This document shows, in pieces, positions 12,761 to 62,665 of a DNA stretch of 64,000 nucleotides (positions within the stretch are counted from its first letter, which is position 1; the number at the start of each line of letters is the position of its first letter). The notes under the pieces are model-generated. The model made no database searches and had not been told where the DNA came from. It saw nothing but the letters and a program-made list of their open reading frames with translations. The DNA comes from Actinomycetes bacterium (GTDB lineage: Bacteria > Actinomycetota > Acidimicrobiia > Acidimicrobiales > RAAP-2): assembly GCA_021791145.1 (NCBI GenBank), contig JAJYXE010000046.1, forward strand, positions 1 to 64,000, read 5' to 3'. Position numbers and translations under genes: made by a program.

Positions 12761-12845
12761 AGCGCCGCCGCGCCGAGCCGAGCGCCGCCGCACCGAGCTG
12801 AGCGCCGCCGCACCGAGCCGAGCGCCGCCGCGCGGAGCCCAGCGC
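12761..12845. repeat. Tandem repeat, 20-base unit, four copies
   Basis: AGCGCCGCCG followed by variants of CACCGAGCCG repeats with an exact 20-base period at 12761, 12781, 12801 and 12821, with a decaying fifth copy. It fills much of the gap between divergent aceE and rnhA. Confidence 0.95.
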
Positions 12846-12902
12846 AGATCGCCCGGCCACCCATCGCCTGCCCGGGCGGCGCCGGCGGTGTAGACCTCCT
12901 GG

Positions 12903-13358: not shown

Positions 13359-13401
13359 CGTCGGCGCGCGGCCCGTCTGGCCTCCGCCGCCTCGACGCAC
13401 C

Positions 13402-13407
13402 TACCAT
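13402..13407 (+). promoter_or_regulatory. Likely -10 element TACCAT of a leaderless SDR gene
   Basis: TACCAT ends 7 bases before the ATG at 13415 and there is no Shine-Dalgarno. Same arrangement as before the cobalamin adenosyltransferase. Confidence 0.45.
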
Positions 13408-13414
13408 CGCCGGC

Positions 13415-14176: not shown

Positions 14177-14189
14177 GAGGGATCCTTCC

Positions 14190-15179: not shown

Positions 15180-15249
15180 CGCACCCTGCGGCGCCGTTAG
15201 GCTCGTAGGCGTTTTCGTCCAGGCGCGTGAAGCGCCGGAGGAGGGTCCC

Positions 15250-16656
15250 GTGGAGTACGACGTGGTGATCATCGGCGGCGGCCCAGGCGGATATGCCGCC
15301 GCCTTGTACGGTGCGTCCGGCGGGTTGCGGATCGCCGTCGTCGAATTCACAAAGGTCGGTGGGACCTGCTTGCACCGCGGCTGCGTGCCGGCGAAGGAAT
15401 TCCTCGAGTCCGCTGCGGTCTACCGCACGGTGCGAAAGGCCTCCGAGTTCGGGATCTCGGCAGGAGACCCGACCGTGGACTTCGCCGTCAACCAGCGCCG
15501 CAAGGTGGCGGTGGTCGACCAGCTCCACCGCGGGCTCGCCGGGTTGCTCAAGGGGCGCAACGTCACCGTGCTCTCCGGGACCGGCACGCTCCTGCCCGGG
15601 CGCCGAGTCCGCGTGGTGGACGGCCCGGACGCCGGCACCGAGGTCGTCGGGCGCCACGTCGTGCTCGCGACGGGATCGGTCCCGCGGACGCTCCCAGGGC
15701 TCGACGTCGACGGGCGCTACGTGCTCACCTCCGACGAGTTCCTCGAGCTCGAGCGCGTGCCCGCCTCGGTGGCCGTGGTGGGCGGCGGCGCGATCGGCTG
15801 CGAGTTCGCCTCTCTCCTGTCGGACCTCGGCGCCAAGGTGACGATCCTCGAGGCATTGGACACGATCCTCGCGGGTTGTGACGACGACATCTCCGCTGTG
15901 GTGGGCCGTTCGTTCAAGCGCCGCGGGATGGAGATCATCACCGGCGCGCAGGTGAAGGGCCACACGCCCCGGCCCGACGGGTCGAGCACGGTGGTCCACC
16001 TCGGCGACGGCAGGGACGTGGAGGCGGAGGTCGTGGTGATCTCCGTGGGCCGCCGTCCCCGGACCGAGGGCCTCTTGTCCGAAGGCACCTCAGTGCAGCT
16101 GGACGAGCGCGGGTTCGTCGTCGTGAACCATCTCATGCAAACTCACGAGCGGAACATCTGGGCCGTCGGCGACGTCTGCGCGGGGACGCCCCAGCTGGCG
16201 CACGTGGCGTTCGAGGAGGCGGTCCTCGTGATCAAGGGCATCCTGGGTGATCCGATGGTGCCGGTCGACTACGAGCGCGTGCCGTGGGCCATCTACTGCC
16301 ACCCCGAGGTCGCCTTCGCGGGCTTGACCGAGGCCCAGGCCGCCGCGCGGGGGATCCCTGTCCTTGTGAAGAAGGACCCCTTCGGCGGGAACAGCCGGGC
16401 GCGTATCATCGGCGACACCGAGGGGCTCGTGAAGGTCGTCGCCGAGCGACTGGCGGACGGGTCCGCAGGCAGGATCCTCGGCGTGCACATGGTCGGTCCG
16501 TGGGTGACCGAGCAGCTCGGCGCCGGTTACCTCGCGGTCAACTGGGAGGCGACGCCGGCAGAGGTCGCACAGTTCATCCAGCCGCATCCGTCGCTCTCCG
16601 AGACGTTCGGGGAGACGGTGCTCGCGCTGACCGGAAGGGGATTGCACGTTGGCTGA
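15250..16656 (+). CDS. lpdA: Dihydrolipoyl dehydrogenase (E3)
   Basis: 468-residue flavoprotein that re-oxidises dihydrolipoyl groups of 2-oxoacid dehydrogenase complexes with NAD+. Domains in order: FAD-binding VVIIGGGPGGYAAAL; redox disulfide GGTCLHRGCVPAKE (residues about 37-47); NAD-binding VAVVGGGAIGCEFASLL; FAD motif IWAVGDVCAGTPQLAH; and the interface His-Glu in QPHPSLSETFGE. GTG at 15250 follows GGAGGAGGG. The upstream open frame to 15124 is not conserved. It overlaps the E2 gene by 8 bases, so expression is coupled with E2 and the lipoate enzyme. Confidence 0.95.
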   Translation: MEYDVVIIGGGPGGYAAALYGASGGLRIAVVEFTKVGGTCLHRGCVPAKEFLESAAVYRTVRKASEFGISAGDPTVDFAVNQRRKVAVVDQLHRGLAGLLKGRNVTVLSGTGTLLPGRRVRVVDGPDAGTEVVGRHVVLATGSVPRTLPGLDVDGRYVLTSDEFLELERVPASVAVVGGGAIGCEFASLLSDLGAKVTILEALDTILAGCDDDISAVVGRSFKRRGMEIITGAQVKGHTPRPDGSSTVVHLGDGRDVEAEVVVISVGRRPRTEGLLSEGTSVQLDERGFVVVNHLMQTHERNIWAVGDVCAGTPQLAHVAFEEAVLVIKGILGDPMVPVDYERVPWAIYCHPEVAFAGLTEAQAAARGIPVLVKKDPFGGNSRARIIGDTEGLVKVVAERLADGSAGRILGVHMVGPWVTEQLGAGYLAVNWEATPAEVAQFIQPHPSLSETFGETVLALTGRGLHVG

Positions 16657-18295
16657 CGTCACGATGCCGCAGCTGGGTGAGACGGTCACCGAGGGGACCA
16701 TCACCCGATGGATGAAGTCCGTGGGCGACCACGTCGAACGCGACGAGCCGCTCTTCGAGGTCTCGACGGACAAGGTCGACTCGGAGGTCCCGGCCCCCGC
16801 GAGCGGTGTGCTCTCCGAGATCGTGGTCCCCGAGGGAGAGACGGTCCCCGTGGGCGCCCGTCTCGCGGTCATCTCCGACGGCGCGGGGGCCAGCGCCCCG
16901 GCGTCTGCGCCGCAAGCCGCCGCTGCGCCTGCAGCCGCCGCTGCGCCTGCAGCCGCCGCTGCGCCACAACCCGCCGCTGCGCCTGCGGAGGCGGTTTCGC
17001 CACCCGCCTCGCCGCCCGGGGCGCCTCCCACGCCCGAGCCGCTCGTGTCGTCGCAGGCAGCACCCGCGTCCTACCCGGCACAGGCAGCACCGCCGCCGCC
17101 GCCGACCGGATACGCGCCGCGACCGAGCGAGACCGGGTCCCCTGCCGGCCCTGCCCCTGGGGGCGACGGCGAAGCCACGCGCGTGGAGGGAATGCTCCTC
17201 TCCCCGGTCGTTCGCCGTCTTCTCGACGAGAACGGCATCTCTCCCTCCGAGGTCACCGGCACGGGGCTCGGTGGGCGGATCACGAGAGAGGACGTCCTCG
17301 GTTTCATCGACGCGCGCCGCGGGGCTGGGGCCGGCGTTGCCGCGCCTTCGGCGTCGGCTCCGCCAGCTGCGCCGTTCCCTCCGCCGCCAGCCCCCCAAGC
17401 GCCGCCACCGCCAGCCCCCCAAGCGCCGCCACCGCCAGCCCCCCAAGCGCCGCCACCGCCAGCCCCCCAAGCGCCGCCACCGCCAGCCCCCCAAGCGCCG
17501 CCGCCGCCAGCTCCCCCGCCGGCCGGCATGCCGGTCCCCGCGGCTCCTACGCAGAGCGCCGCCACCGCCGTCTTCCGCCCCTCGGCGGACCGGTTGGTGC
17601 CGTTCTCGAACATGCGGCGTCGGACCGCAGAGCACATGGTCCGTTCGAAGGCCACCTCGCCGCACGCCTACATCGCGTACGAAGCGGACTTCGAGAACGT
17701 CGACCGCGTGCGCAAGGTGTGGCGTGACCGCTTCAAGAGCGAGGAGGGGTTCTCGCTCACGTACCTCCCCTTCATCGCGCGAGCGACCGTCGACGCGCTC
17801 CGAGAGTTCCCCAATCTGAACGCGTCGGTCGTCGAGGACTCTCTGGTCGTGCACCAGCAGGTGAATCTCGGGATCGCGGTCGACCTCAACCACGAGGGGC
17901 TCATCGTCCCCGTCATCCACCACGCAGAGGAGATCACGCTTCGCGGGATCGCGCGGCGGGTCAGGGACCTCGCCGACCGCGCCCGCAACAGGCAGCTGAC
18001 CGCCGACGACATCGCCGGGGGCACGTTCTCCGTCACCAACGACGGGCCGTTCGGCACGTACTTCACCGTGCCGATCATCAACCAGCCGCAGGTCGCGATC
18101 CTGGCGACCGACGGCGTCCGCCGCCGCCCCGTCGTCGTCGAGCTCGCCGACGGCAGCGAGTCCATCGCCATCCACTCCGTCGGGATGATCGGGCTCAGCT
18201 GGGACCACCGTGCGGTGGACGGCGCGTACGTGTCGTCCTTCCTTCGCCGGGTCGCGCAGGCCCTCTCCACGCGCGACTGGGCTTCCGAGCTGTAG
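16649..18295 (+). CDS. sucB: Lipoyl-domain acyltransferase E2 of a 2-oxoacid dehydrogenase complex
   Basis: 548 residues. An N-terminal lipoyl domain (MPQLGETVTEGTITRW, lipoylated Lys in STDKVDSEVPAP) is followed by an Ala/Pro linker, a peripheral subunit-binding domain (LLSPVVRRLLDENGISPSEV and GTGLGGRITREDVL, about 180-220), a second linker of five APPPPAPQ repeats, and the catalytic domain ending in SWDHRAVDGAYVSSFLRR (catalytic His and Asp). TTG at 16649 gives an 8-base overlap with lpdA. The symbol follows the common actinobacterial SucB annotation; with AceE as the only E1 nearby, it may serve as the acetyltransferase for both complexes. Confidence 0.92.
   Translation: MADVTMPQLGETVTEGTITRWMKSVGDHVERDEPLFEVSTDKVDSEVPAPASGVLSEIVVPEGETVPVGARLAVISDGAGASAPASAPQAAAAPAAAAAPAAAAAPQPAAAPAEAVSPPASPPGAPPTPEPLVSSQAAPASYPAQAAPPPPPTGYAPRPSETGSPAGPAPGGDGEATRVEGMLLSPVVRRLLDENGISPSEVTGTGLGGRITREDVLGFIDARRGAGAGVAAPSASAPPAAPFPPPPAPQAPPPPAPQAPPPPAPQAPPPPAPQAPPPPAPQAPPPPAPPPAGMPVPAAPTQSAATAVFRPSADRLVPFSNMRRRTAEHMVRSKATSPHAYIAYEADFENVDRVRKVWRDRFKSEEGFSLTYLPFIARATVDALREFPNLNASVVEDSLVVHQQVNLGIAVDLNHEGLIVPVIHHAEEITLRGIARRVRDLADRARNRQLTADDIAGGTFSVTNDGPFGTYFTVPIINQPQVAILATDGVRRRPVVVELADGSESIAIHSVGMIGLSWDHRAVDGAYVSSFLRRVAQALSTRDWASEL
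17383..17515 (+). repeat. Tandem repeat, 24-base unit encoding APPPPAPQ in the E2 linker
   Basis: About five near-identical 24-base copies (gccgccaccgccagcccccc core followed by aagc) encode an eight-residue Pro/Ala repeat. The array sits in the flexible linker between the subunit-binding and catalytic domains and so can vary in copy number without a frameshift. Confidence 0.95.
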
Positions 18296-18297
18296 CC

Positions 18298-20049
18298 GTG
18301 CTACGCATTCGCCGCCTCGGGCAAGTCAGCTACGCCGAGGCGTTCGATCTCCAGCATGCGCTCGCGCAGCGAGGAGGCGACGACTACTTGCTGCTGGTGG
18401 AGCACCCCCACGTCTACACGCTCGGCGTGCGCGCCGACCCCGCACACGTCCTTCGCGATCCGGCGTCAGTCGGGGCGACGCTCTTTCGGACCGACCGGGG
18501 CGGCGACGTGACCTATCACGGGCCGGGCCAGCTCGTCGCCTACCCGATCGTGACGCTCGAGGACCATCCCGGCGCGGGCCCGCTCCACGTGCACCGCATC
18601 GAACAGCTGGTCATCGACGCGCTCGGCTTACTGGGGGTCGAGGCGTCACGGCACGAGGGCTACCCCGGGGTCTGGGTGGGCGTCGACGGCCCGTCGCCCC
18701 GCAAGGTGGCCGCCATCGGGGTACGGACCATGCGGGTGGACGGCGGGCGGCGCCGGACCCTCCACGGCGTCGCACTCAACGTGGACTGCGACCTCGAGAT
18801 GTTCGGCCACATCGTGCCGTGCGGCATCGCGGACTACGCGGTGACCTCTCTGCGCGCGGAGGGGAACGACGCGTCGATGGACGAGGTCGTCGAGGCGGTT
18901 GCCTCGCGAGCGGCAGCGGTGTGGGGGACCGACGGCGTCGATCGCCGCGACGTCGACCTGCCGCGAAGGAAACGGCATCCGGGCGGGAACGCCGACGTCG
19001 CCGAGGAGCGGCCTCTGCTGCGCCGGCTTCGGGACGCCGGCACCGACCCCGACGCCGGGATCCCGTTCCGGGCGCGCAAGCCGGAGTGGCTCCGCGCCCC
19101 GGCACGCATGGGGGAGGGGTACGTCTCCCTCGGTCGGACGATCCACGATCTGCGGCTGGTCACTGTCTGCGAGGAGGCAGGCTGCCCCAACATCTTCGAG
19201 TGCTGGGCCGACGGGACGGCCACCTTCATGGTCAACGGCTCGCGCTGCACGCGCGCTTGCGGCTTCTGCCTCGTCGACACGCGCCGTCCGCTGCCCCTCG
19301 ACCCGACCGAGCCAGACCGTGTCGCCGAAGCGGTCGCGCGGATGCGGCTGTCGCACGCAGTCATCACGTGTGTCGCTCGCGACGACCTCGACGACGGCGG
19401 TGCAGGAGCGATCGCGGCCACGGTCCGGGCGGTCCGGCGGCGCAACCCCGAAACGGGAATCGAGGTCCTGGTCTCCGACTTCAAGGGGGACGCGTCCTCT
19501 CTCGAGCTCGTCCTCGACGCGCGCCCCGACGTGCTGAACCACAACGTGGAGACCGTGGTCCGGCTCCAGCGCGCGGTGCGGCCGTCTGCTGGGTACGCGA
19601 GGAGCCTCGCGGTGCTCGCCCGAGCTGCCGACGCCGGGCTCGTAGTGAAGTCGGGGCTCATGGTCGGCCTAGGGGAGTCCGAGGAGGAGGTCGTCTCCAC
19701 GCTTGCCGACATGGCGTCCGTCGGCGTGTCGATCGCGACGATCGGGCAGTACCTGCGGCCGAGCGCGGACCACCTGCCGGTCGCCCGGTGGTGGAGCCCA
19801 GCGGAGCTCGAGGCGCTAGCCACCGCCGGACGCGAGCTCGGCCTCTTGCATGTCGAGGCCTCGCCGCTCACGCGGTCGAGCTACCACGCGAAGCAGGCCG
19901 CCGACGCCGCCTCCTCGCCAGCCGACGCCAGCGAAGACGGCGGCACGGCTCACGCCGCGACGGGGTCAGCCCCGCTGCGCGTAGTGCTGCGTCCAGGTGT
20001 TCCCGTCCCAGTACCGAAGCGTGTCGGGGGTGCCGCTCGGGTCGGGTAG
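18298..20049 (+). CDS. lipB-lipA: Fused octanoyltransferase LipB - lipoyl synthase LipA
   Basis: 583 residues carrying two complete lipoate enzymes. Residues 1-215 are LipB: RGGDVTYHGPGQLVAYPI, catalytic Lys in RKVAAIGVR (136) and Cys in VPCGIADYAVTSL (175). A short linker leads to LipA from about 237: auxiliary cluster Cys 291, 296 and 302 (CEEAGCPNIFECW), radical-SAM Cys 317, 321 and 324 (CTRACGFC), VITCVARDDLDDGGA, and the terminal RSSYHAKQ (about 525-532). Octanoyl transfer and sulfur insertion would both come from one polypeptide. GTG at 18298 starts 2 bases after the E2 stop. The last 50 residues look non-conserved, and part is antisense to the DUF2510 gene. No stop codon or frameshift separates the halves. 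Confidence 0.95.
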   Translation: MLRIRRLGQVSYAEAFDLQHALAQRGGDDYLLLVEHPHVYTLGVRADPAHVLRDPASVGATLFRTDRGGDVTYHGPGQLVAYPIVTLEDHPGAGPLHVHRIEQLVIDALGLLGVEASRHEGYPGVWVGVDGPSPRKVAAIGVRTMRVDGGRRRTLHGVALNVDCDLEMFGHIVPCGIADYAVTSLRAEGNDASMDEVVEAVASRAAAVWGTDGVDRRDVDLPRRKRHPGGNADVAEERPLLRRLRDAGTDPDAGIPFRARKPEWLRAPARMGEGYVSLGRTIHDLRLVTVCEEAGCPNIFECWADGTATFMVNGSRCTRACGFCLVDTRRPLPLDPTEPDRVAEAVARMRLSHAVITCVARDDLDDGGAGAIAATVRAVRRRNPETGIEVLVSDFKGDASSLELVLDARPDVLNHNVETVVRLQRAVRPSAGYARSLAVLARAADAGLVVKSGLMVGLGESEEEVVSTLADMASVGVSIATIGQYLRPSADHLPVARWWSPAELEALATAGRELGLLHVEASPLTRSSYHAKQAADAASSPADASEDGGTAHAATGSAPLRVVLRPGVPVPVPKRVGGAARVG

Positions 20050-51905: not shown

Positions 51906-51911
51906 TAGGGT
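51906..51911 (+). promoter_or_regulatory. Likely -10 element TAGGGT before the rhodanese-ThiF gene
   Basis: TAGGGT ends 8 bases before ATG at 51920, no Shine-Dalgarno; leaderless mRNA is likely. Confidence 0.45.
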
Positions 51912-51919
51912 ATTGCCGC

Positions 51920-53077
51920 ATGACGACGCCTCGCGAGCTTCTGGCACAGGCAAAGGCCGCGATCGTCGAGGTCGAGCCCGAAGAGGCCGCCCGCCGGCTC
52001 GGGGCCGCCGTCTTCCTCGACGTCCGTGAGCCCGACGAGTACGAGCAGGGGGCGATCCCCGGGGCGGTCCACCTCCCGCGTGGGAACCTCGAGTTCAGCG
52101 TCGAGGGGAGGATCCCCGACAAGGAGCGCCAGCTCGTCGTCTACTGCGCGGGCGGCACCAGGTCGGCGTTCGCTGCCAAGACGCTCGTGGACCTCGGCTA
52201 CCGCGACGTCGTCTCGCTGGTGGGCGGCTTCAACCGCTGGAAGGACGAGGGCCGTGACTGGGGCATTCCCCGGACCCTTACGAGTGACCAGCGGAACCGC
52301 TACCATCGCCACCTCCTGCTTCCCGAGGTGGGGGAGCAGGGCCAGCAGACGCTCCTCGACTCCAAGGTGCTCCTGCTCGGCGCGGGCGGGCTCGGGTCAC
52401 CGGCCGGCTTGTACCTGGCTGCGGCGGGCGTCGGGACGATCGGCATCGTCGACATGGACGTGGTCGACGAGTCGAACCTCCAGCGCCAGATCCTGCACAA
52501 CCTCGACCGCATCGGGGAGCGCAAGGTCGACTCGGCCAAGAAGACGCTCACGGCGCTCAACCCCGACGTCACGGTCGAGACCTTCGACGTGCGTCTCGGC
52601 GCCGACAACGTGCTCGACATCTTCGACGGGTACGACCTGGTGGTCGACGGCACCGACAATTTCCCGACCCGCTACCTCGTGAACGACGCCTCGCTCTTGA
52701 AGCGGATCCCCGTCGTGCACGGCTCGATCTTCCGATTCGAGGGCCAGGTCACGGTGTTCGACCCCTACAACGGACCGTGCTACCGCTGCCTCATCCCCGA
52801 GCCGCCCCCTGCAGAGCTCGCCCCCTCGTGCGCGGAGGCCGGCGTGCTCGGGGTTCTCCCCGGCATCGTGGGGAGCATCCAGGCGGTGGAAGCCATCAAG
52901 ATGCTGCTCAGCCTGGGTGACCCGCTCGTCGGGCGCTTGCTCGCCTACGACGCGCTCGAAGAGACGTTTCGGACGTTCAAGCTGCGACGCGATCCCGAGT
53001 GCCCGGCCTGTGGGGAGCACGTGGGCGAGATCGTCATCGCCGACTACGACGAGCTCTGCATGCCGCACGCCCGCTGA
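51920..53077 (+). CDS. moeB: Rhodanese-ThiF/MoeB fusion, sulfur-carrier adenylyltransferase
   Basis: 385 residues. An N-terminal rhodanese domain (VFLDVREPDEYEQGAIPGAVHLP, active Cys76 in VVYCAGGTRSAFAAKTL) precedes a ThiF/MoeB adenylating domain (RYHRHLLLPEVGEQGQQTLL, GAGGLGSPAGLYLAAAGVGTIGIVDMD, catalytic-Cys loop LAPSCAEAGVLGVLPG, zinc pairs CYRC and CPAC). Such enzymes adenylate and thiocarboxylate MoaD/ThiS-like carriers. In the better-known MoeZ type the rhodanese is C-terminal, so the order is reversed here. No carrier protein gene is adjacent. It may also supply sulfur to the downstream ComA operon. Confidence 0.9.
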   Translation: MTTPRELLAQAKAAIVEVEPEEAARRLGAAVFLDVREPDEYEQGAIPGAVHLPRGNLEFSVEGRIPDKERQLVVYCAGGTRSAFAAKTLVDLGYRDVVSLVGGFNRWKDEGRDWGIPRTLTSDQRNRYHRHLLLPEVGEQGQQTLLDSKVLLLGAGGLGSPAGLYLAAAGVGTIGIVDMDVVDESNLQRQILHNLDRIGERKVDSAKKTLTALNPDVTVETFDVRLGADNVLDIFDGYDLVVDGTDNFPTRYLVNDASLLKRIPVVHGSIFRFEGQVTVFDPYNGPCYRCLIPEPPPAELAPSCAEAGVLGVLPGIVGSIQAVEAIKMLLSLGDPLVGRLLAYDALEETFRTFKLRRDPECPACGEHVGEIVIADYDELCMPHAR

Positions 53078-53256: not shown

Positions 53257-53874
53257 ATGACCCGGTCCCTCAGTGCGCCCGGCGCGCCGGAGACGCCCGG
53301 TCGCCGTCGTCTCTGGCTGGTCCGCCATGGTGAGACGGCCTGGAACGCGTCCGGGCTCGTCCAAGGCCAGCGCGACCCGGGACTGACCTCCAAGGGACGT
53401 GCACAGGCGGGACGCTGTGCCCGGTCGCTCGTCGCCGGGCGCGAGGTCGAAGCGCTGTACTCGAGCGACCTCCGGCGCGCGCTCGAGACGGCAGCGCCTC
53501 TTGCTGAGGCGCTGGAGCTCCCCGTCCGGGTCGAGCCGGGCCTGCGAGAGCGTGCGCTCGGCGACGCGGAGGGCCTCCCGAGCGCGCTGCTCGGCCCGTC
53601 GAGCTCGGGTGTCGAGCTCGGACGCGTGGTCGACGCCGACGCGGCGCCGGAGGGCGGCGAGACGGTACGACAGCTCTACGAACGCGTAGCGCTGTGTGCG
53701 ACGCGCCTCGTGGCGTCTCACCGAAAGGACGTCGTGCTCGTCTGCCACGGCGGGGTCGTGCGCGTCCTGCTCGCCTGGATCGACGGCGTGACGCCCGAGG
53801 AGATGACCTGGCCCGAGATCGACAACGGGGTGCCGATCGTGCGGAGCCTTCCCTCCGCACTGATCGGGGCCTGA
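53257..53874 (+). CDS. Histidine phosphatase family protein
   Basis: 205 residues. Phosphoglycerate-mutase-like fold: LWLVRHGETAWNASGLVQGQRDPGLTSKGRAQA (phospho-His in RHGE), LYSSDLRRALETAAPLAEAL, catalytic acid region LRERALGDAEGLP, and second His in VVLVCHGGVVRVLLAW. It removes phosphate from small molecules. It is the first gene of a tight operon with comA 13 bases downstream, so a role as phosphosulfolactate phosphatase, replacing the unrelated ComB, is an attractive inference. ATG at 53257 or adjacent GTG at 53254. Confidence 0.88.
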   Translation: MTRSLSAPGAPETPGRRRLWLVRHGETAWNASGLVQGQRDPGLTSKGRAQAGRCARSLVAGREVEALYSSDLRRALETAAPLAEALELPVRVEPGLRERALGDAEGLPSALLGPSSSGVELGRVVDADAAPEGGETVRQLYERVALCATRLVASHRKDVVLVCHGGVVRVLLAWIDGVTPEEMTWPEIDNGVPIVRSLPSALIGA

Positions 53875-53887
53875 CCGAGGAGGGAAC

Positions 53888-54685
53888 ATGAACCCGACCA
53901 CGCTCACGCTTCCACGACGCAGCGCAAAGCCGCGCGAGGTCGGACTGACGATGGTCGTGGACGGGGGTGTGCCCGTCGGTGCGTTGCGGGACATCACCGC
54001 CAGCGCGGGCGAGTACCTCGACTTCGTGAAGTTCGGCTGGGGGACCGCAGTCGTGACCCGGGAGCTCGGCGAGAAGATCGAGCTGCTCGAAGCCAACGAC
54101 GTCGACTTCTACTTCGGAGGGACGCTGTTCGAGAAGTACGTCCTCCAGCGCCGGTTCGACGACTTCCGGAAGCTGTGCCATGAGTGGGGTTGCACGTTCG
54201 TGGAGGTGTCCAACGGGACGATCGAGCTGTCCAACCTCGAAAAGACCGGGTACGTCCGCAAGCTGGCGGACGAGTTCACCGTGATCTCCGAGGTGGGGTT
54301 CAAGGACGCCGACCGTTCGGACCGGCTCAGCCCCCGCCGCTGGATCGAGTTCGTCGAAGACGACCTCGCAGCAGGGGCCCAGCTCGTCACCCTCGAGGCG
54401 CGCGAGAGCGGGAGCTCGGGGATCTGCCACGCGGACGGCCAGCTGCGTGTGGGGCTCATCGAGGAGGTCGTGTGCGAGCTCCCGGTCGGCCGCCTGCTGT
54501 TCGAAGCCCCGACCACGGCCCTGCAGGCACACATGGTGCGCCGCGTCGGCCCGGACGTGAACCTCGGGAACGTCGCGCCCAACGGGCTCCTTGCGCTCGA
54601 GACGCTCAGGCTCGGGCTCCGTGCGGACACCCTGACCGAATTCGAGGGGCCGGGCGAGGGGCCGGGCGAGGGGCTGGAACGGTGA
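53888..54685 (+). CDS. comA: Phosphosulfolactate synthase (ComA family)
   Basis: 265 residues. ComA adds sulfite to phosphoenolpyruvate, giving phosphosulfolactate, the first committed step of coenzyme M and some other sulfonates. Family motifs line up along the whole length: GLTMVVDGGVP, GEYLDFVKFGWGTAVV, FYFGGTLFEKYVLQRRFDDF, FVEVSNGTIELS, VISEVGFKD, VTLEARESGSSGI, LLFEAPTTALQ, VNLGNVAPNGLLALETLRLGLRADT. GGAGGGAAC lies just upstream of the ATG. The C-terminal tail repeats GEGPGEG from a 12-base repeat. GTGA overlap joins it to the VOC gene. No other known coenzyme M genes are seen here. Confidence 0.9.
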   Translation: MNPTTLTLPRRSAKPREVGLTMVVDGGVPVGALRDITASAGEYLDFVKFGWGTAVVTRELGEKIELLEANDVDFYFGGTLFEKYVLQRRFDDFRKLCHEWGCTFVEVSNGTIELSNLEKTGYVRKLADEFTVISEVGFKDADRSDRLSPRRWIEFVEDDLAAGAQLVTLEARESGSSGICHADGQLRVGLIEEVVCELPVGRLLFEAPTTALQAHMVRRVGPDVNLGNVAPNGLLALETLRLGLRADTLTEFEGPGEGPGEGLER

Positions 54686-55080
54686 AGGACCACGTGTTCC
54701 ATCTCGCGATCCCGGTCCTCGACCTGGAGCTCGCACAGCGGTTCTACGTGACAGGCCTCGGCTGCAAGCTCGCCCGGACGTACCCGGACCGCATCACGCT
54801 CGACTTCTTCGGCGACCAGGTGGTCTGCCACCTGACGGAGCCTGAGCCCAGAGGCGGTCCCCTCTCGTTGTACCCGCGCCACTTCGGGATCACCTTTCGA
54901 AAGCGCAAAGATTTCGACCTCCTCTACCGCCTGGCACAGCTTCGCAAGATCCTCTTCTTTCGCGACGTCTCCACCCGCTTCGAGGGCACCGCCGAGGAGC
55001 ACCACACCTTCGTGCTGCAGGACCCCTTCGAGAACCTGATCGAGTTCAAGCACTACCGAGATCCGAGGATGTCCTACTGA
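54682..55080 (+). CDS. VOC (glyoxalase/dioxygenase fold) family protein
   Basis: 132 residues, a single VOC domain. Likely metal ligands are His in VFHLAIPVLDLELAQRFY, His in YPRHFGITF, and Glu in NLIEFKHY at the end. The segments DFFGDQVVCHLTEP and EEHHTFVLQDPFENLIEFKHY match a widely distributed small VOC type also found in cyanobacteria; its reaction is unknown to me. GTG at 54682 overlaps the comA stop by 4 bases, so it is co-translated with comA and may act on a ComA-derived metabolite. Confidence 0.85.
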   Translation: MKDHVFHLAIPVLDLELAQRFYVTGLGCKLARTYPDRITLDFFGDQVVCHLTEPEPRGGPLSLYPRHFGITFRKRKDFDLLYRLAQLRKILFFRDVSTRFEGTAEEHHTFVLQDPFENLIEFKHYRDPRMSY

Positions 55081-55081
55081 G

Positions 55082-56629
55082 GTGACCTTCGCGGTCCGGT
55101 CACTCGAACGCACGCCGATCGCCCAGCGCGCGGGATTGCCAGACCTCATCTGGCTCCGCTCGCTTACGTCGTCGCGCCAGGTCTACCTCGAGCGGGCCGA
55201 CGGGGGGCAGCGCGTCACCTATGGCGAGCTCTGCCGGGTGGCCGCGCGCTGGAGCGCGCTCCTCTTTGACCTCGACGTCCGCCCCGGGGCGACGGTGGGG
55301 GTGGCGGTCGCCGAGCCGGTCGAGTTCGCCGCGGTCTTCCTGGGCGTGCTCGCGTCCGGGCGCACCGCGGCGCCTCTCGACCCCTCCGCCACCGACGCCG
55401 AGCTCACCAGCGCGTGCGCACGAAGCTCCCCTCGAGTTGTGGTCGCAGATCGTCGGGCACCCGAGGGGGTGCGGGCCGAGTGGCTCACGCTTCCTCCCGG
55501 TGCTTGCTTCCTCTCGGGCACACCGTGCGCCGCGCTGCGAACGCCGAGCCAGCATGCCGGTGGCGTCGTCCTCTCGACGTCCGGGACGACGGGCACGGCC
55601 AAGGTGATCCGGCTCGGCGAGGCACAGCTGCTCCACACCGCCCGAGCGGTCGCCGGGCACCTCGAGCTCTCGTCGCAAGACCGCGGTTTCAACCCGCTGC
55701 CGCTCTTCCACATCAACGCGGAGGTCGTCGGGCTGCTCGCGACGCTCGTCTCCGGCGCGACCCTCGTGCTCGACGACCGATTCCATCGCCGAGGGTTCTG
55801 GGAGACCATGGCCCGCCGGCGCGTGACGTGGATCAATGCCGTGCCGGCGATCCTCGCGAGGCTCGCCGCCCTCGAGGGCACAGAGGACGTCCCCGAGGCA
55901 GTCCGGTTCGCCAGATCGGCGTCGGCGCCACTGCCCGTGCCGGTGCTCGAGCGCTTCGAGAAGACGACGGGGATCCCCATTGTCGAGACCTACGGGATGA
56001 CCGAGGCTGCCAGTCAGATCACCGCCAACCCGCTGCACGGACCCCGGAAGTCCGGCTCGGCCGGGGTCGCCGTCGGCACCGAGGTCCGCGTGGTCGCCGG
56101 CGAGCGCGAGGTGCTCGGTCCCAACGAGGTCGGCCGCGTCGTGATCCGCGGGCCGAGCGTGATCGCCGCGTACGCCTCGCCGGGCTACGAGGACCGCGTC
56201 GACCGCGACGGATGGCTCGAGACGGGCGACCTCGGCTACCTGGACCCCGACGGCTACCTCTTCCTCGTCGGCCGGGCGGACGACGTGATCAACCGGGGGG
56301 GCGAGAAGATCTACCCCAAGGAGCTCGAGGACGTGGTGCTCTCGGAGCCGGACGTGACCTCCGCCGCGGTCGTGGGGTGGGACCACCAGGTCCTCGGCCG
56401 GGTCCCGGTCGCCTACCTGGTCGTCGAGGGAGTCCGCGGGCCGCAGGACGAAGCTCGGGCGGTGCGCGTCGTCACCCGTGTCCACGCCCGGTGCGCGGAG
56501 GTGCTCTCACGTGCAAAGCGACCTGTTGCCTACCACGTCGTCGAACGGATGCCGCAGGGCGCGACGGGCAAGGTGCGCAGGAGCGCGCTGAGCGGTGTGC
56601 CTGCTGTCTATTCCCTGCTCGTGCGGTGA
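55082..56629 (+). CDS. AMP-dependent acyl-CoA synthetase/ligase
   Basis: 515 residues of the ANL superfamily. ATP loop LSTSGTTGTAKVI (about 161-173), acyl pocket around FNPLPLFHINAEVVGLLATL, adenine motif VETYGMTEAASQ, hinge DGWLETGDLGYLDPDGYLFLVGR, and catalytic Lys in MPQGATGKVRRSAL. It activates a carboxylic acid as acyl-AMP and then usually as CoA thioester. The small-acid branch containing oxalate-CoA ligase-like enzymes looks closest by eye. GTG begins one base after the VOC stop and the acyltransferase gene overlaps its end, so it belongs to the comA operon. The substrate could be a sulfonated acid. Confidence 0.9.
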   Translation: MTFAVRSLERTPIAQRAGLPDLIWLRSLTSSRQVYLERADGGQRVTYGELCRVAARWSALLFDLDVRPGATVGVAVAEPVEFAAVFLGVLASGRTAAPLDPSATDAELTSACARSSPRVVVADRRAPEGVRAEWLTLPPGACFLSGTPCAALRTPSQHAGGVVLSTSGTTGTAKVIRLGEAQLLHTARAVAGHLELSSQDRGFNPLPLFHINAEVVGLLATLVSGATLVLDDRFHRRGFWETMARRRVTWINAVPAILARLAALEGTEDVPEAVRFARSASAPLPVPVLERFEKTTGIPIVETYGMTEAASQITANPLHGPRKSGSAGVAVGTEVRVVAGEREVLGPNEVGRVVIRGPSVIAAYASPGYEDRVDRDGWLETGDLGYLDPDGYLFLVGRADDVINRGGEKIYPKELEDVVLSEPDVTSAAVVGWDHQVLGRVPVAYLVVEGVRGPQDEARAVRVVTRVHARCAEVLSRAKRPVAYHVVERMPQGATGKVRRSALSGVPAVYSLLVR

Positions 56630-57849
56630 CGACGCGGCGCGCGAAGCCGCGGCTCGACCATGTCGACGCGATGCGCCCGGTCAAGCAGGCCGGGGTGGTG
56701 TCGACGCACACGCTCATCTTCTTCGCGCCGGGGGCGGCCATCTCGGTGGGAGGAGCGCTGATGCTGCTGCACGTCACGCGCGAGGCGTTCCTCTTCATCT
56801 CGGCGTGCATGCTCACCTACGGCTACTCGGACCTGCAGACCATCGGCTACCGGTACTTCTACCGCCGGCGGTTCGTCTCCGTCGCCGTTCCCTACATGTG
56901 CTGGACGTTGGTCTACTTCGCCGTCTCCCTTCCCGGGTCGGGGCTCGGGCTGTCGAGCGGGCTCCAACACCTGGGATTCCTGCTCGGGACCGGCTACTAC
57001 CAGCTCTACTACCTCGTGGTCATCATGCAGTTCTACTTGCTGTACCCGGCGCTGTTCTGGCTCGTGCGCCGGTTCGCCGGCCATCCCCGCGCCGTCGTGG
57101 CCGTCGCGCTCGGCGTCCAGGTCCTCATGACGAGCCTCATGCACTGGGGGGTCCTTCCGCCGCACATGCGCGGCTACTGGGCCACGAGGGAGATCACGTC
57201 CTATCTCTTCTACCTCGTCGCGGGCATGGTCGTCGCGATGAACCTCGACGCGGTGCACCGCTGGCTCCTTCGCAACGGGTGGCGGGTCCTAGGGGCCACC
57301 GTGGTCGCGGCGGTCATCGCCGAGGCGTGGTACGTTGCGGCGCACGACCACCTCGCCTCGTGGCTCGGTTCGGGCACGGATCCGCTCCAGCCGATCGTGA
57401 TCCCGTTCAACATCGGTGCGATCGCCTGCGTCTATCTCTTCGGCGTGTGGCTCGTCCAACCCGGGCGTTCCCGCCGGATCCGGGCGATGGCCATGTCGGG
57501 ATCGGACAACTCCTACACGGTCTACCTTGCGCAGATGCTCTTCGTGTACGCGCTGGCCGATCTCGGGTGGCGCTCGCTCGACCGCGTCGCGCCGTGGCCG
57601 CTCGTCGCGGTGGCGGGCGTCGCGATCATCTTCCTGTCGTGCGTGCTGATGGGGAGCCTCCTCGCGCGGACTCCCTTCTCGGTGGCGCTCACGGGTCGAC
57701 GGCGCGAGAGATGGTCGACGTGGCTGCCACGAGAGTGGCGCAGGATCGACCAGGAGGAGCGACGCGACTCGACCGCGCCGATCGATCCGGATGCTGATCC
57801 TTTGAGGTCGTGGGCCGATGCCTCGCCCGCGGGGGCACGCAGCGTGTGA
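56626..57849 (+). CDS. Acyltransferase 3 family membrane protein
   Basis: 407 residues with about ten membrane helices (for example FLFISACMLTYGY, VAVPYMCWTLVYFAVSLP, YLVVIMQFYLLYPALFWLV, AGVAIIFLSCVLMGSLL). The family transfers acyl groups from cytoplasmic CoA thioesters to cell-surface molecules. The usual catalytic His near the N-terminus may be in AGVVSTHTLIFFAPG, followed by RRRFVSVAVPY. The C-terminal 60 residues are hydrophilic. GTG overlaps the ligase TGA by 4 bases; last gene of the comA operon, consistent with transfer of the ligase product. Confidence 0.85.
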   Translation: MTTRRAKPRLDHVDAMRPVKQAGVVSTHTLIFFAPGAAISVGGALMLLHVTREAFLFISACMLTYGYSDLQTIGYRYFYRRRFVSVAVPYMCWTLVYFAVSLPGSGLGLSSGLQHLGFLLGTGYYQLYYLVVIMQFYLLYPALFWLVRRFAGHPRAVVAVALGVQVLMTSLMHWGVLPPHMRGYWATREITSYLFYLVAGMVVAMNLDAVHRWLLRNGWRVLGATVVAAVIAEAWYVAAHDHLASWLGSGTDPLQPIVIPFNIGAIACVYLFGVWLVQPGRSRRIRAMAMSGSDNSYTVYLAQMLFVYALADLGWRSLDRVAPWPLVAVAGVAIIFLSCVLMGSLLARTPFSVALTGRRRERWSTWLPREWRRIDQEERRDSTAPIDPDADPLRSWADASPAGARSV

Positions 57850-57893
57850 GCCCTGGGCGCCTCGCAGTGTGTGAGCCCGGGCGCCTCGCCGCC
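57843..57893 (+). repeat. Two imperfect copies of a 23-base unit at the acyltransferase 3' end
   Basis: GTGTGAGCCCTGGGCGCCTC and GTGTGAGCCCGGGCGCCTC overlap the stop codon and fill the gap to the mutase promoter. Confidence 0.8.
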
Positions 57894-57899
57894 TAGCCT
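57894..57899 (+). promoter_or_regulatory. Likely -10 element TAGCCT of the leaderless mutase gene
   Basis: TAGCCT ends 7 bases before GTG at 57907 without a Shine-Dalgarno. Confidence 0.45.
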
Positions 57900-57906
57900 T
57901 GTCCAC

Positions 57907-59496
57907 GTGCCGAGCGACGAGACCCTCCGCAAGACCGACTCGGGCATCGAGATCCGCCCCGTCTACGGCCCCGGGGACCTCGAGGGATGGGACCCCGAGG
58001 TCCAGCTCGGCGCTCCGGGTCGCTACCCCTTCACCCGCGGCGTCCATCCCGAGATGTACCGGCGCCGGCTGTGGACGATGCGCCAGTACGCCGGTTTCGG
58101 GACCGCGGAGGCGACCAACCAGCGGTTCAAGTTCCTCCTCCGCCACGGGCAGACGGGGCTCTCGTGCGCCTTCGACCTCCCGACCCAGATGGGCTACGAC
58201 TCGGACCACCCGCGCGCCGAGGGAGAGGTCGGCAAGGTGGGCGTCGCCATCGACTCGCTCGCCGACATGCGCCTGCTCCTCGACGGGCTGCCGCTCGACA
58301 CCGTGACGACGTCGATGACGATCAACGCTACGGCTGCCATCCTGCTGCTCCTCTACGAACTGGTCGCAGAGGAGCAGGGAGTGCGCGGCGACCAGCTGGG
58401 TGGCACCGTCCAGAACGACATCTTGAAGGAGTACGTCGCACGCGGGACGTACATCTACCCACCCCGCCCCTCGATGCGGCTGATCGTCGACACGTTCTCG
58501 TACTGCCGGGAGCATTTGCCGAACTGGAACACCATCTCGATCTCGGGCTACCACATCCGCGAAGCGGGCTCGACGGCGGTCCAGGAGGTCGCGTTCACCC
58601 TCGCGGACGGGATCGCGTACGTCGAGGCGGCGAGAGAAGCTGGGCTCGAGGTGGACGAGCTCGCGCCGAGATTGTCATTCTTCTTCAACGCGCACAACAA
58701 CCTCTTCGAAGAGGTCGCCAAGTTCCGCGCCGCCCGCCGCATGTGGGCGCGGATCATGACCGAGCGGTTCGGTGCGCGCGAAGACCGCTCGAAGCTGCTG
58801 CGGTTCCACGCGCAGACCGGCGGGTCGACGCTCACGGCGCAGCAGCCGGACAACAACATCGTCCGCGTCACGGTGCAGGCGCTCGCCGCCGTGCTCGGGG
58901 GCACCCAGAGCCTCCACACCAACGGCTTCGACGAAGCGCTCGGCCTCCCGACGGAGCGGGCGGCGAAGCTCGCGTTGCGCACCCAGCAGGTCATCGGCCA
59001 CGAGTCGGGCGTCGCGGACACGGTCGACCCGCTCGGCGGCTCCTACTACGTCGAGTGCCTCACCGACGAGGTGGAGCGCAAGGCGCTCGACTACCTCTGG
59101 CGCATCGACGAAATGGGCGGCGCGGTTGCCGCGATCGAAGCCGGGTTCCTCCAGGCGGAGATCGAAGCGGCGGCGTACGAGTACGCGAAGGCGGTGGACG
59201 ACGGCGAGAAGGTCGTGGTCGGGGTCAACCGGTTCGTCGACGCGGATGCCGAGGCGCCGGAGGTCTTCCCGGTGGACCCCGAGCTCCAACGCGCACAGGT
59301 GGCGCGCGTCGCCCGGGTCCGTGCCGAGCGCGACGCGGCCGCCGTGGAGGCCGCCCTCGAGGACGTCCGCGCCGCGGCGCGCGGCACGCAGAACCTGCTC
59401 GTCCCGATGAAAGAGGCGCTCAGGCGGATGGCGACCCTCGGAGAGGTCTCAGACGCCCTTCGCGCCGAGTGGGGCGTGTACCAGCCAGGCGGCTGA
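57907..59496 (+). CDS. Methylmalonyl-CoA mutase family large subunit (no B12 domain)
   Basis: 529 residues, the catalytic barrel only: [113 protein letters not shown], and [15 protein letters not shown]. It stops before the B12-binding DxHxxG domain, which must come from a separate small subunit not present in this window. The substrate-site Arg (PSMR) of methylmalonyl-CoA mutase is kept, but the Tyr in the GPYxxMY region is His (GVHPEMY). It could therefore be a methylmalonyl-CoA mutase or an isobutyryl/other acyl-CoA mutase. Confidence 0.9.
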
Positions 59497-59501
59497 ACCT
59501 G

Positions 59502-59591
59502 CCCGGCCTCGAAGGTGCCGGCCTCGAATCCGCCGGCCTCGAATCCGCCGGCCTCGAATCCGCCGGCCTCGAAGGTGCCGGCCTCGAAGGT
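59502..59591. repeat. Tandem repeat, 15-base unit GCCGGCCTCGAAGGT/TCC, six copies
   Basis: Units at 59502, 59517, 59532, 59547, 59562 and 59577; the middle three end AATCC, the outer ones AAGGT. The array fills the whole gap between the convergent mutase and M20 genes, ending one base before the M20 stop codon. Confidence 0.98.
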
Positions 59592-59592
59592 G

Positions 59593-60780
59593 TCAGCTCA
59601 AGAGCTGCCGGCGCCGCTCGCGCTCGCGCTGCAGGTGCTCGCGCAGGGAGGGCTGGACCGCCGCGTCGATCGCCGTCCAGGCCATGGCGAGCGCGCCGTC
59701 GTGGACGGCGGCGTCCGCGGAGGGAGAGATGCACGCGGCAGCGAACGCGTGCTGGTGGTTGACCGCTCCCTTCGCGTCGATGGCGATCAGCGGATGGATC
59801 GCAGGGACGGCGAGGGACACGTTGGCCATGTCGGTCGACAGCGTCGGGAGCGGGGCACCTTCGTCGTCGAGGGTGAAGCGGCGCCCGAGGGCCTCGGCGT
59901 TGGCGCGGTAGGCGGCGAGGAGCCCGGGGTCGCTCTCCATGTGCGAGTAGACGGGCGAGAGCTCCTCGAAGGCCGCGCTCGCGCCGGTCGCGAGCGCGCC
60001 CGCTTCGAAGCACGCGCGCACCCGGGGGTCGAGCCGCTCCAGGTCCGCGAGCGTCGTCGCCCTGCACATGAAGCGGCCCCGCACCCTCTCGGGGATGATG
60101 TTCGCCGCGACGCCACCTTCGAGGACCACGCCGTGCGCTTGATCACCCGGACGGAACTGCTGGCGGAGGAGGCCGATGCCCACCTCAGCGACGGTCATCG
60201 CGTCGAGCGCGTTGACCCCCTCCCAGGGAGCTGCCGACGCGTGCGCCTCGCGCCCGGCGAAGGTCACGTCGAAGTGCGACACGGCGAGACACTGTCCCGC
60301 GAGGCGCTCGGAGCTCCACGGGTGCACCATCATCGCCGCATGCACCCCGTCGAAGCCTCCCCGCTCGAGCATGACGACCTTGCCGCCGCCGCCCTCCTCT
60401 GCGGGCGTTCCCAGCACGAGCACGCTGAGCCCGACATCGTCGGCCACCTCCGCCAGCGCGAGTCCCGCGCCGACGGCCGCGGCGGCGATCACGTTGTGAC
60501 CGCACGCGTGGCCGACGACGGGCAGCGCGTCGTACTCGGCGCAGACCGCGACCACGAGCGGGCCGCTGCCTGCTCGCGCCGAGAAGGCCGTCGGCATCCC
60601 GTACGCGCCGGGCGTGACCTCGAAGCCGTCGAGCATGCCCTCCACGGCGGCCGCGGACCGGTGCTCCTCGAACGCCGTCTCCGGGTGCGCGTGCAGATCG
60701 TGGCTGAGCGCGCGCAGCTCGTGCATGCGGCGCTCGACGACCGATGCCGCGCGCGCCTTGGGGTCTCGTGTGCCGGGCAC
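59593..60780 (-). CDS. M20 family amidohydrolase/metallopeptidase
   Basis: 395 residues. Metal-binding motifs: ALSHDLHAHPETAFEEHRS, GHACGHNVIAAAAVGAG, LGTPAEEGGGGKVVMLERGGFDG, and VHPWSS, followed by the dimerisation domain (HFDVTFAGREAHASAAPWEGVNALDA). This pattern is closest to AbgB/amidohydrolase-type M20 enzymes that cleave N-acyl amino acids or p-aminobenzoyl-glutamate. GTG at 60780 lies 7 bases after the carboxylase stop, so it is in the carboxylase operon. The substrate is unknown. Confidence 0.92.
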   Translation of the reverse strand: MPGTRDPKARAASVVERRMHELRALSHDLHAHPETAFEEHRSAAAVEGMLDGFEVTPGAYGMPTAFSARAGSGPLVVAVCAEYDALPVVGHACGHNVIAAAAVGAGLALAEVADDVGLSVLVLGTPAEEGGGGKVVMLERGGFDGVHAAMMVHPWSSERLAGQCLAVSHFDVTFAGREAHASAAPWEGVNALDAMTVAEVGIGLLRQQFRPGDQAHGVVLEGGVAANIIPERVRGRFMCRATTLADLERLDPRVRACFEAGALATGASAAFEELSPVYSHMESDPGLLAAYRANAEALGRRFTLDDEGAPLPTLSTDMANVSLAVPAIHPLIAIDAKGAVNHQHAFAAACISPSADAAVHDGALAMAWTAIDAAVQPSLREHLQRERERRRQLLS

Positions 60781-60787
60781 GGCCGCG

Positions 60788-62665
60788 CTACTCGATGATC
60801 GCGACGACGTCGCCGCCGCCGACGGAGTCGCCAGCCGCCACCCGGACCTCCTTCACCACGCCGTCCCGGTCGGCGTTGATCGCGTTCTCCATCTTCATGG
60901 CCTCCAAGATGCAGACCGTCTGCCCGGCTTGCACGTTGTCGCCGGGCGCGACCAGCACCGACACGATCGTCCCTTGCATCGGGACGGTGACCGCGCCGGA
61001 CCCGGCCGCGGCGCTCGTCGCGTGCGATGCGTGCGGCCGCGGCCGGCCGGGTGCCCTTCGGGGCGCAAGGCCGCGTGTCGGCGTGCCGCCCGGCTCGTCG
61101 GCGCCGAGCGGCAGCCAGAGCTTCAGGCGGTAGCGGCGCCCGTCGACTTCGGCGGTGATCTCCCTCGCGCCGAGCTCCGACGTCCCCGTGCCGGCCGCGC
61201 CCCCCGTGCCGGCCGCGCCCCCCGTGCCGGCCGCGCCCCCCGTGCCGGACCCGGCGACCGTGCCGGACCCGGCGACCGTGCCGGACCCGGCGACGGTGCC
61301 GGACCCGGCGGCGGTGAGGTCGGAGAGGTCCAGCCGCTCCTCGACCCACTTGGTGGAGTGGCGCGCCTCGGCGAAGTCGGGATGCTCGAGGATGGCGATG
61401 TCGGCGGGGATGGTCGTCGCGATCCCGGTGATGCGCGTCTCACCCAGCGCGCGCAGCATGCGGCGGCGGGCCGCGTCGCGGTCCTCGGCCCAGACGATGA
61501 GCTTGGCGACCAGGTTGTCGTAGTACTGGCTGACCGTGTCCCCGGCTCCGTACCCGGCGTCGAGGCGCACCCCCGGGCCGCCGGGGGCGTCGAAGGCGGT
61601 GATGGTCCCCGGCGAGGGGGAGAACCGGCCGGCGGTGGGGTCTTCGGCGTTGATCCGCACCTCGATCGCGTGCCCCCGCCGCTCGATGTCCGCCTGCTCG
61701 AAGGGCAGCCGCTCGCCCGCCGCGATGCGGAGCTGCCAGGCGACGAGGTCGAGGCCGGTCACGAGCTCGGTGACGGGGTGCTCCACCTGGAGGCGGGTGT
61801 TCATCTCGAGGAAGTAGATCTCCCCGTCCTCGTAGAGGAACTCGACCGTGCCGGCGTTCACGTAGCCGCAGGCCTCGGAGACCTTCACCGCCGCCGCGCC
61901 CATCGCTTGGCGGACCTCGTCGGGGAAGCCGGGGGCCGGTGACTCCTCGATGAGCTTCTGGTGCCTGCGCTGCGCGGAGCAGTCACGTTCGCCGAGCCAC
62001 AGGACGTTGCCGTGGGTGTCCGCGAGCACCTGCATCTCCACGTGCCTGGGCCAGGCCAGGTACCGCTCGAGGTAGACCTCCGCCCTGCCGAAGTAGGCCT
62101 GGGCCTCGCGCTGGGCGGAGGCGACCGCCTCCTCCGCCTCCTCGGCGCTCCGGACGACCCTCATCCCCCGGCCGCCGCCGCCGAACGCCGCCTTGATCGC
62201 CACCGGCCAGCCGTGAGCGCCGGCGAAGTCGACCACCTCGCCGGGTCCCAAGATCGGCTCGGAGCGTCCGGGCACCCCCGGCACGCCGGCCCGGTCTGCG
62301 GCGAGGCGGGAGCTGATCTTGTCCCCCATCACCTCCATGGCCTCGGGCGGGGGGCCGACGAAGGCGACCCCGAGGGAGGTGACCGCTCGTGCGAAGTCGG
62401 CGTTCTCGGAGAAGAAGCCGTACCCGGGATGGACCGCGTCGGCACCGCTTCGCCGGAGGGCTTCGAGGATCGCCTCGGTGTTGAGGTAGCTCTCGGCGGC
62501 GGTCTGCCCCCCGAGGGCGTAGGCCTCGTCGGCCATCCGCACGTGCATGGCCTCGCGGTCGAGGTCCGAGTACACGGCGACGGTCGCGATCCCCATCTCC
62601 CTGCAGGTGCGCATGACCCGGACGGCGATCTCCCCGCGGTTTGCAACGAGGACCTTTTGGAGCAC
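60788..62665 (-). CDS. Acyl-CoA carboxylase alpha subunit (biotin carboxylase + biotin carrier)
   Basis: 625 residues. Biotin carboxylase: [41 protein letters not shown]-grasp [33 protein letters not shown], and [17 protein letters not shown] low-complexity linker follows (TVAGSG and GTGGAA repeats, about 452-493), then a BT-like segment and the carrier domain with the biotinylated Lys in [18 protein letters not shown]. It would carboxylate acetyl- or propionyl-CoA with a separate carboxyltransferase subunit that is not in this window. GTG at 62665; divergent from biotin ligase. Confidence 0.93.
61188..61313. repeat. Tandem repeat, 18-base unit in two subtypes, seven copies, inside the carboxylase gene
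   Basis: Three copies of GTGCCGGCCGCGCCCCCC (61188, 61206, 61224) and four of GTGCCGGACCCGGCGACC-like (61242, 61260, 61278, 61296). In frame, they encode GTGGAA and TVAGSG repeats of the linker between the catalytic and carrier domains. Confidence 0.97.

Follow-up and report, generated by a model that had tools for sequence, protein, structure and literature searches.

A conserved operon around a bacterial phosphosulfolactate synthase that may join sulfolactate synthesis to acylation outside the cytoplasm

Introduction

The addition of sulfite to phosphoenolpyruvate (PEP) is the established reaction of the ComA (phosphosulfolactate synthase) family. Here we examine an operon in which comA lies between genes for a histidine phosphatase (HisP) and a VOC-fold protein, followed by genes for an AMP-forming acyl-CoA ligase (ACS) and an AT3 membrane acyltransferase. 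It is found on contig JAJYXE010000046.1 of an Actinomycetes bacterium (assembly GCA_021791145.1), whose positions 1 to 64,000 were analysed and are referred to as the window.

The closest described bacterial case is that of Bacillus subtilis, in which sulfolactate makes up 5% of the dry weight of spores and yitCD was inferred to make phosphosulfolactate (PMC517825). As in the window, the yitCD system places a member of the wider bacterial ComA family (PDB 1u83) beside a phosphatase. Loci from close B. subtilis relatives (L057, L058, L062, L071 and L074 in our numbering) present ComB near ComA and no VOC, ACS or AT3, whereas in the window HisP, VOC, ACS and AT3 are present and ComB has no match; moreover, B. 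subtilis sulfolactate is a spore component, unlike the envelope ester proposed below. The methanogen ComABCDE pathway shares the ComA reaction and a phosphatase step with the window but proceeds by oxidation and decarboxylation where the window has ACS and AT3.

On the side of the last two genes, AT3 proteins move acyl groups from coenzyme A (CoA) to acceptors outside the cytoplasm. They carry an R-X10-H motif (PMC9833829) and their donors include acetyl, isovaleryl (used by CarE) and similar groups, the anionic succinyl among them (PMC9558356); AT3 combined with SGNH is a known layout for surface acylation, and stand-alone AT3 proteins also exist (PMC9833829, PMC9558356). Like OafB and OatA or the stand-alone ExoH and OpgC, the window has an AT3 protein with R-X10-H, and many of its relatives add an SGNH partner; it differs in that its operon includes a module for making and activating an acid. 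Oxalate-CoA ligases (PDB 5ie0, 6qjz and 8aff) share motifs around the acid pocket with ACS. A search over titles and abstract openings, most subscription papers being outside reach, returned no description of such a system, and an Alicyclobacillus genome study lists comA under intermediary carbon metabolism (PMC10562698).

Results

Gene identities and conservation of the operon

An original prediction, made from the letters of the window, had named the five families and given gaps of 13, -4, 1 and -4 bases between the genes. Sequence and open reading frames bear out the set, its coordinates and its gaps, and Pfam places each product in the family named, above the curated cut-offs (Table 1). 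Against the NCBIfam archaeal equivalog TIGR03849, ComA scores 223 bits, below the 280 cut-off, and is therefore not filed as that equivalog. Its solved relatives are 1u83 (E 9.9e-81), which we take to be the B. subtilis ComA protein, and 1qwg (E 2e-42). Loss of the sulfite- and PEP-binding residues had been named as an outcome that would speak against the prediction; instead, the alignment keeps the conserved core of both structures, comprising K139 (the counterpart of the catalytic M. jannaschii K137) and the segments DFVKFGWGT, GGTLFE, EVG.K, RESG, FEAP, VNL.N and LETLR.GLR. By this comparison the window ComA is a predicted phosphosulfolactate synthase acting on sulfite and PEP.

With one genome searched per species, the scan for ComA yielded 146 relatives, of which the best 80 were kept, including two pairs of loci from single genomes (L019 and L040; L025 and L026). 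The nearest of these place the window in an acidimicrobial actinobacterium. The window genes were placed in these loci by tblastn and then by iterated hidden Markov models (HMMs), counting those within 7 kb of ComA; metagenome-assembled genomes in the sample may be incomplete. The 50 actinobacterial loci present VOC in 45 cases, ACS in 43, AT3 in 41, HisP in 40 and an SGNH-type gene in 24, with ComA, VOC, ACS and AT3 together in 39. All five Alicyclobacillaceae loci have VOC, and three of them ACS and AT3 as well, completing the same set of four. The 11 actinobacterial loci without all four comprise three whose contig ends within ACS (L005, L018, L037), two second ComA copies from genomes with the full set elsewhere (L026, L040), one lacking VOC only (L033) and five without ACS (L011, L023, L027, L034, L046), four of these also without AT3. 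The other 25 loci (24 from Bacillota and one from Bacteroidota) show VOC in 12 and ComB in 19, and neither ACS nor AT3 in any.

Gene order varies as well. ComA-VOC-ACS-AT3 is the commonest, and the others are ACS-AT3-ComA-VOC (Pseudonocardiales), AT3-ACS-ComA-VOC (Alicyclobacillus), ComA-VOC-AT3-ACS and a divergent layout (L116, L117), making five arrangements once three Alicyclobacillaceae loci outside the 80 (L115-L117) are counted. Confinement of the five-gene set to this genome had been named as a further outcome that would speak against the prediction; the set is conserved far more widely. A ComA tree of 99 rows requires 9 changes of the ACS-linked state, 4 or more of them forced by well supported branches, and 0 of 500 shuffles was as low, a clustering that near-copies favour. 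This tree left out L083, L084, L086, L101, L102 and domains under 200 amino acids, and rows marked as having none of the genes may have missed them, L083-L100 carrying about 1.5 kb of flank only.

Co-occurrence was followed in two genome samples. Among 296 genomes of one class (that of G002, a close relative), ComA at E <= 1e-30 is found in 18, of which 8 have the close type, a close/distant split made after viewing the lists and counting as close G240, with a contig-end ComA piece (59% identity) beside VOC and a best-scoring ComA at 44%. VOC is present in 7 of these 8 genomes (G018 lacks it) and in 0 of the 288 others. ACS gives the same figures (G225 lacks it) at a limit of E <= 1e-90, also chosen on viewing and with at most five candidates scored per genome; values drop from 8e-92 to 4e-67, and at a limit of 1e-60 20 genomes match, 7 of them with close ComA. 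In 41 Alicyclobacillaceae genomes, close ComA (1e-79 as opposed to 4e-47, again a split made on sight) occurs in 22, accompanied by VOC in 22/22 vs 1/19 of the remainder and by ACS in 21/22 vs 10/19. Fisher tests return 2e-13 for both ACS and VOC in the class sample and 9e-11 (VOC) and 0.0025 (ACS) in Alicyclobacillaceae, values that are too optimistic given kinship and cut-offs set on sight. Taken with synteny and best-match orthology, this co-occurrence makes the five-gene linkage more than chance.

VOC and HisP as genomic partners of ComA

VOC is the most faithful partner of ComA and, being almost confined to genomes with close ComA in both samples, can be regarded as dedicated to it. The single genome with VOC and no close ComA carries a short vestige of ComA immediately upstream of VOC (L121:8115-8177), in a locus that keeps AT3 and ACS and has a frame resembling SGNH by eye. 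PDB 3rri, an Alicyclobacillus acidocaldarius protein, is of one family with VOC (63-65% identity over almost the full length), and the conserved residues of VOC (H7, R32, R37, H50, R66, H67, R99, E105, H107, E121, K123) form a cationic, histidine-rich set. After 3RRI, the nearest VOC folds are fosfomycin resistance enzymes, which bind a small phosphonate, and antibiotic-binding proteins that are not known to have enzyme activity.

The phosphatase step is approached through linkage. HisP is found near ComA in 40 of the 50 actinobacterial loci, lying upstream in the same direction in 17, downstream in the opposite direction in 13 and upstream in the opposite direction in 10 (10 not found). Since it remains beside ComA though its orientation varies, HisP likely works with ComA. 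Searched genome-wide, the copy linked to ComA matches HisP best in 20/20 actinobacterial genomes (G001-G020) and in 0/10 other genomes searched, three Pseudonocardiales included. HMM placement found ComB near ComA in 0/50 actinobacterial loci; away from ComA, PF04029 (the ComB family) exceeds its cut-off in 8 of the 30 genomes, four within G001-G020 and one from Pseudonocardiales. The window HisP has PF00300 as its sole Pfam match and does not belong to PF04029. Because it stays linked through changes of orientation while ComB is absent from these neighbourhoods, HisP is the best candidate for a 2-phosphosulfolactate phosphatase standing in for ComB.

ACS, AT3 and SGNH

The top three solved relatives of ACS are the oxalate-CoA ligases 5ie0 (E 1e-63), 6qjz and 8aff. 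Where these have FHVH in the pocket, ACS has FHIN, a difference by which its relatives need not imply oxalate activity. Residues H210 and N212 are identical in all 64 aligned ACS rows, of which 47 have a linked ComA, 8 come from genomes without close ComA and 9 are unlinked (L033 and L086 being one gene). The pocket was considered as a marker for sulfolactate and set aside, as the same motif occurs in all three groups of rows and does not discriminate. We propose ACS as a putative sulfolactate-CoA ligase, taking its reaction class from the family and its substrate from context.

Genome-wide searches with ACS return the ComA-linked copy as the best match in 26 of 30 genomes, at times by a wide interval (1e-149 vs 5e-43 for the next match in G008; 2e-124 vs 5e-77 in Trebonia kvetii, G010). 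In Alicyclobacillus cellulosilyticus and Ferroacidibacillus, a good ACS lies on a contig other than that of ComA, with SGNH next after it; the Ferroacidibacillus ACS is also divergent from AT3. In the remaining two genomes, Evansella and Bacillus spizizenii, the ligases are all more distant ones.

In AT3, R17 and H28 of the R-X10-H motif in the first helix are invariant across 25 aligned sequences, and the predicted model is helical (mean pLDDT 80.8). Among 18 Alicyclobacillaceae loci fetched around ACS, 17 have AT3 and 12 one or two SGNH-type genes. SGNH also adjoins ACS in L081 and L082; the SGNH protein of L029 reaches 27.8 bits with Lipase_GDSL_2, under the 32.9 cut-off. In five relatives (L001, L002, L003, L008, L010) AT3 and the mutase gene that follows it are separated by another AT3 gene and one for SGNH, so the window may have lost both or keep them elsewhere.

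Eight Alicyclobacillaceae loci from genomes without close ComA (L103-L110) present ACS-AT3, five of them with SGNH. An MFS-like gene, recognised by eye, adjoins the module in 6/8 Alicyclobacillaceae loci of this kind, and one such neighbour in L048 is named MFS by Pfam. Five actinobacterial loci (L015:4019-5137, L016, L055, L060, L064) have near the cluster a secreted-looking alpha/beta-hydrolase-like gene, recognised by eye and free of Pfam matches, and no SGNH within the fetched stretch; this gene might replace SGNH there.

A proposed pathway and its alternatives

We consider it an even chance that the operon forms one pathway, making sulfolactate and attaching it through its carboxyl to something outside the cytoplasm. 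ComA would make phosphosulfolactate from sulfite and PEP, and HisP would remove the phosphate in place of ComB. VOC probably acts on sulfolactate or its phosphate, putatively as a metal-dependent isomerase or epimerase, or performs another step, this being the least certain part of the scheme. ACS would then activate the sulfolactate carboxyl with ATP and CoA, and AT3 would carry the acyl group across the membrane, where in many relatives, by analogy to AT3/SGNH systems, an SGNH protein would hand it on to a glycan of the surface or another acceptor. The envelope would be expected to carry a sulfolactate ester, with a sulfonate that would stay charged at low pH. The original prediction had coupled a sulfolactate-making step with the action of a CoA ligase and membrane acyltransferase; that coupling gains from the conservation and from the ComA core, and the end product stays conjectural. 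The gene system is real and conserved and brings known parts together in a new combination, with an end product that amounts to a good guess.

Several observations weigh against this pathway. The phosphatase role of HisP, the substrate of VOC, sulfolactate as the ACS substrate and the envelope acceptor are parts that we infer. The margin in favour of oxalate-CoA ligases is slim (197 bits for the third match vs 195 for the fourth, a succinylbenzoate-CoA ligase), and the NCBIfam models that ACS matches best, each with a score falling far short of the cut-off, are those of FadD7 and fatty acid ligases. Fosfomycin enzymes, among the nearest characterised VOC folds, tie with the antibiotic-binding proteins. 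For the AT3 model, Foldseek found no solved relative in the PDB (best E 0.97); no SGNH gene was found by HMM in the window, nor within 7 kb of ComA in the five Alicyclobacillaceae loci among the 80. ACS occurs in ten of the 19 Alicyclobacillaceae genomes that lack close ComA, AT3 adjoins it in 9/9 loci fetched from genomes without close ComA and the conserved ACS motif is unchanged in the 8 aligned rows from such genomes. ACS-AT3 is thus a module that joins ComA often and not always, and its acid need not be sulfolactate. Conversely, ComA-VOC occurs without ACS-AT3 in 12 of the 25 other loci, a group mostly from Bacilli, so sulfolactate has other uses. Finally, near relatives are not independent events.

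The main rival draws on these same facts and holds that two modules share an operon and not a substrate: ComA, HisP and VOC would make free sulfolactate as a solute, as in B. subtilis spores, while ACS-AT3, with SGNH where present, would acylate the surface with another small acid. Each module is found alone, as just described, and sulfolactate is a spore component in B. subtilis (PMC517825). Against it, the linkage recurs across lineages and under differing gene orders, and the genes co-occur in the class sample. We regard this rival as rather unlikely, though it comes closest to the single pathway.

Sulfolactate could also be the acceptor, with ACS activating another, perhaps fatty, acid and AT3 acylating the sulfolactate hydroxyl to give an acyl-sulfolactate lipid or surfactant. 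AT3 proteins do acylate hydroxyls, the isovaleryl of CarE shows that longer donors are known (PMC9558356), and FadD7 and the long-chain fatty acid ligases among the sub-cut-off NCBIfam matches would suit such an acid. The oxalate-CoA ligases at the top of the solved ACS relatives argue the other way, the SGNH partners suggest a polymer of the surface as target, and sulfolactate made in the cytoplasm must get outside, for which the MFS gene of several Alicyclobacillaceae loci leaves room. This arrangement seems to us less probable again than two modules sharing an operon.

A methylmalonyl or similar dicarboxylic group moved by AT3 deserves little credence: a methylmalonyl-CoA mutase gene begins 21 bases past AT3, and methylmalonyl substituents are known on osmoregulated periplasmic glucans (PMC9558356), but the mutase is near in only 8/80 loci, all close relatives, and ComA and VOC would be left unexplained.

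Coenzyme M synthesis is unlikely, and that the operon holds its first steps, with the later genes elsewhere in the genome, is the least credible reading of all, since ACS and AT3 play no part in the methanogen pathway even if ComA is its first enzyme. A full coenzyme M gene set elsewhere in the genome had been named as the third outcome against the prediction. ComE (sulfopyruvate decarboxylase beta, TIGR03846) exceeds its cut-off in 0/30 genomes of relatives, a search that did not extend to the window's own genome, to ComC, ComD or to the bacterial coenzyme M genes, and on this count coenzyme M was rejected as a likely end product. Weak ComE matches occur in 30/30 genomes, the best (144 vs 221.5 bits) in Evansella clarkii, which has no ACS-AT3 near ComA.

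Neighbouring genes and feature coordinates

Although the mutase could lie on the same transcript as the five genes, its confinement to eight close relatives led us to reject it as a pathway member; it is probably an unrelated neighbour. In window positions 57871-62665 the mutase large subunit (+) lies close to a biotin carboxylase with a biotin carrier domain (-), as in propionate/acyl-CoA carboxylation. The original prediction had also drawn attention to a rhodanese-ThiF sulfur-transfer gene upstream of HisP, which is indeed present; a special role for it in the pathway finds no backing, as it is near ComA in just 7/80 loci, all close relatives, and a part as sulfite source is not supported either.

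Table 1. Position, strand and family assignment of the operon genes and their neighbours in the window.
Feature	Coordinates	Strand	Evidence
HisP, histidine phosphatase (branch 1)	53257..53874	+	ATG start; PF00300 (His_Phos_1) 161 bits
ComA, phosphosulfolactate synthase (predicted)	53888..54685	+	ATG start; PF02679 271 bits (cut-off 25.2)
VOC-fold protein, putative metal site	54682..55080	+	GTG start; Pfam Glyoxalase (VOC) 37 bits
ACS, AMP-forming acyl-CoA ligase	55082..56629	+	GTG start; PF00501 (AMP-binding) 185 bits, PF13193 (AMP-binding_C) 40 bits
AT3 membrane acyltransferase	56626..57849	+	GTG start; PF01757 (Acyl_transf_3) 106 bits (cut-off 31)
Methylmalonyl-CoA mutase large subunit	57871..59496	+	PF01642 750 bits
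Rhodanese-ThiF (MoeB/MoeZ-like) protein	51911..53077 (start approximate)	+	NF006444 571 bits, PF00899, PF00581

Elsewhere in the window (9995-20049), genes for pyruvate dehydrogenase E1, a dihydrolipoyl dehydrogenase-like protein and a 2-oxoacid dehydrogenase acyltransferase are clustered, together with a frame of 583 amino acids that joins an LplA-B_cat lipoyl ligase to a lipoyl synthase-like radical SAM domain. Outside the window, six acidimicrobial loci (L023, at 9920-11311, L026, L027, L033, L034, L046) have a pyridoxal phosphate (PLP)-dependent decarboxylase near ComA, the L023 copy being Pyridoxal_deC in Pfam. Five of the six have HisP and five lack ACS and AT3; perhaps these loci represent a second sulfonate branch, towards an amine.

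Possible implications for life at low pH

Carriers of the system include Alicyclobacillus, Ferroacidibacillus and genomes from palsa, bog and fen. The two genera are acidophiles and the three kinds of site are acidic. As a tentative reading, to which we give clearly less weight than to the single pathway as such, the genes would form a new envelope modification, in which sulfolactate esters are set on a surface polymer: a dedicated pathway of ComA, a substitute phosphatase, a new metal-dependent VOC enzyme for (phospho)sulfolactate, a sulfolactate-CoA ligase and AT3/SGNH, supplying Gram-positive acidophiles with a negative charge that, unlike that of carboxyls, stays fixed at pH 1-4. Two loci that have ComA-VOC and lack ACS-AT3 (L059, L080) come from Bacilli whose names suggest alkaliphily, so ComA by itself is not bound to acid. 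A study of Corynebacterium glutamicum reports a ComA homologue, cg2797, as up 3.2-fold at pH 6 (PMC2627906).

If the pathway holds, bacterial ComA genes outside the coenzyme M and spore solute pathways would be assigned a product, AT3 enzymes would have a sulfonate among the acyl groups that they transfer, and the VOC family with the solved structure 3RRI would gain a role. For the organisms themselves, it would mean a surface adaptation to acid through a permanent negative charge on the cell and, for bogs, permafrost soils and other acidic places, a source of organosulfonates.

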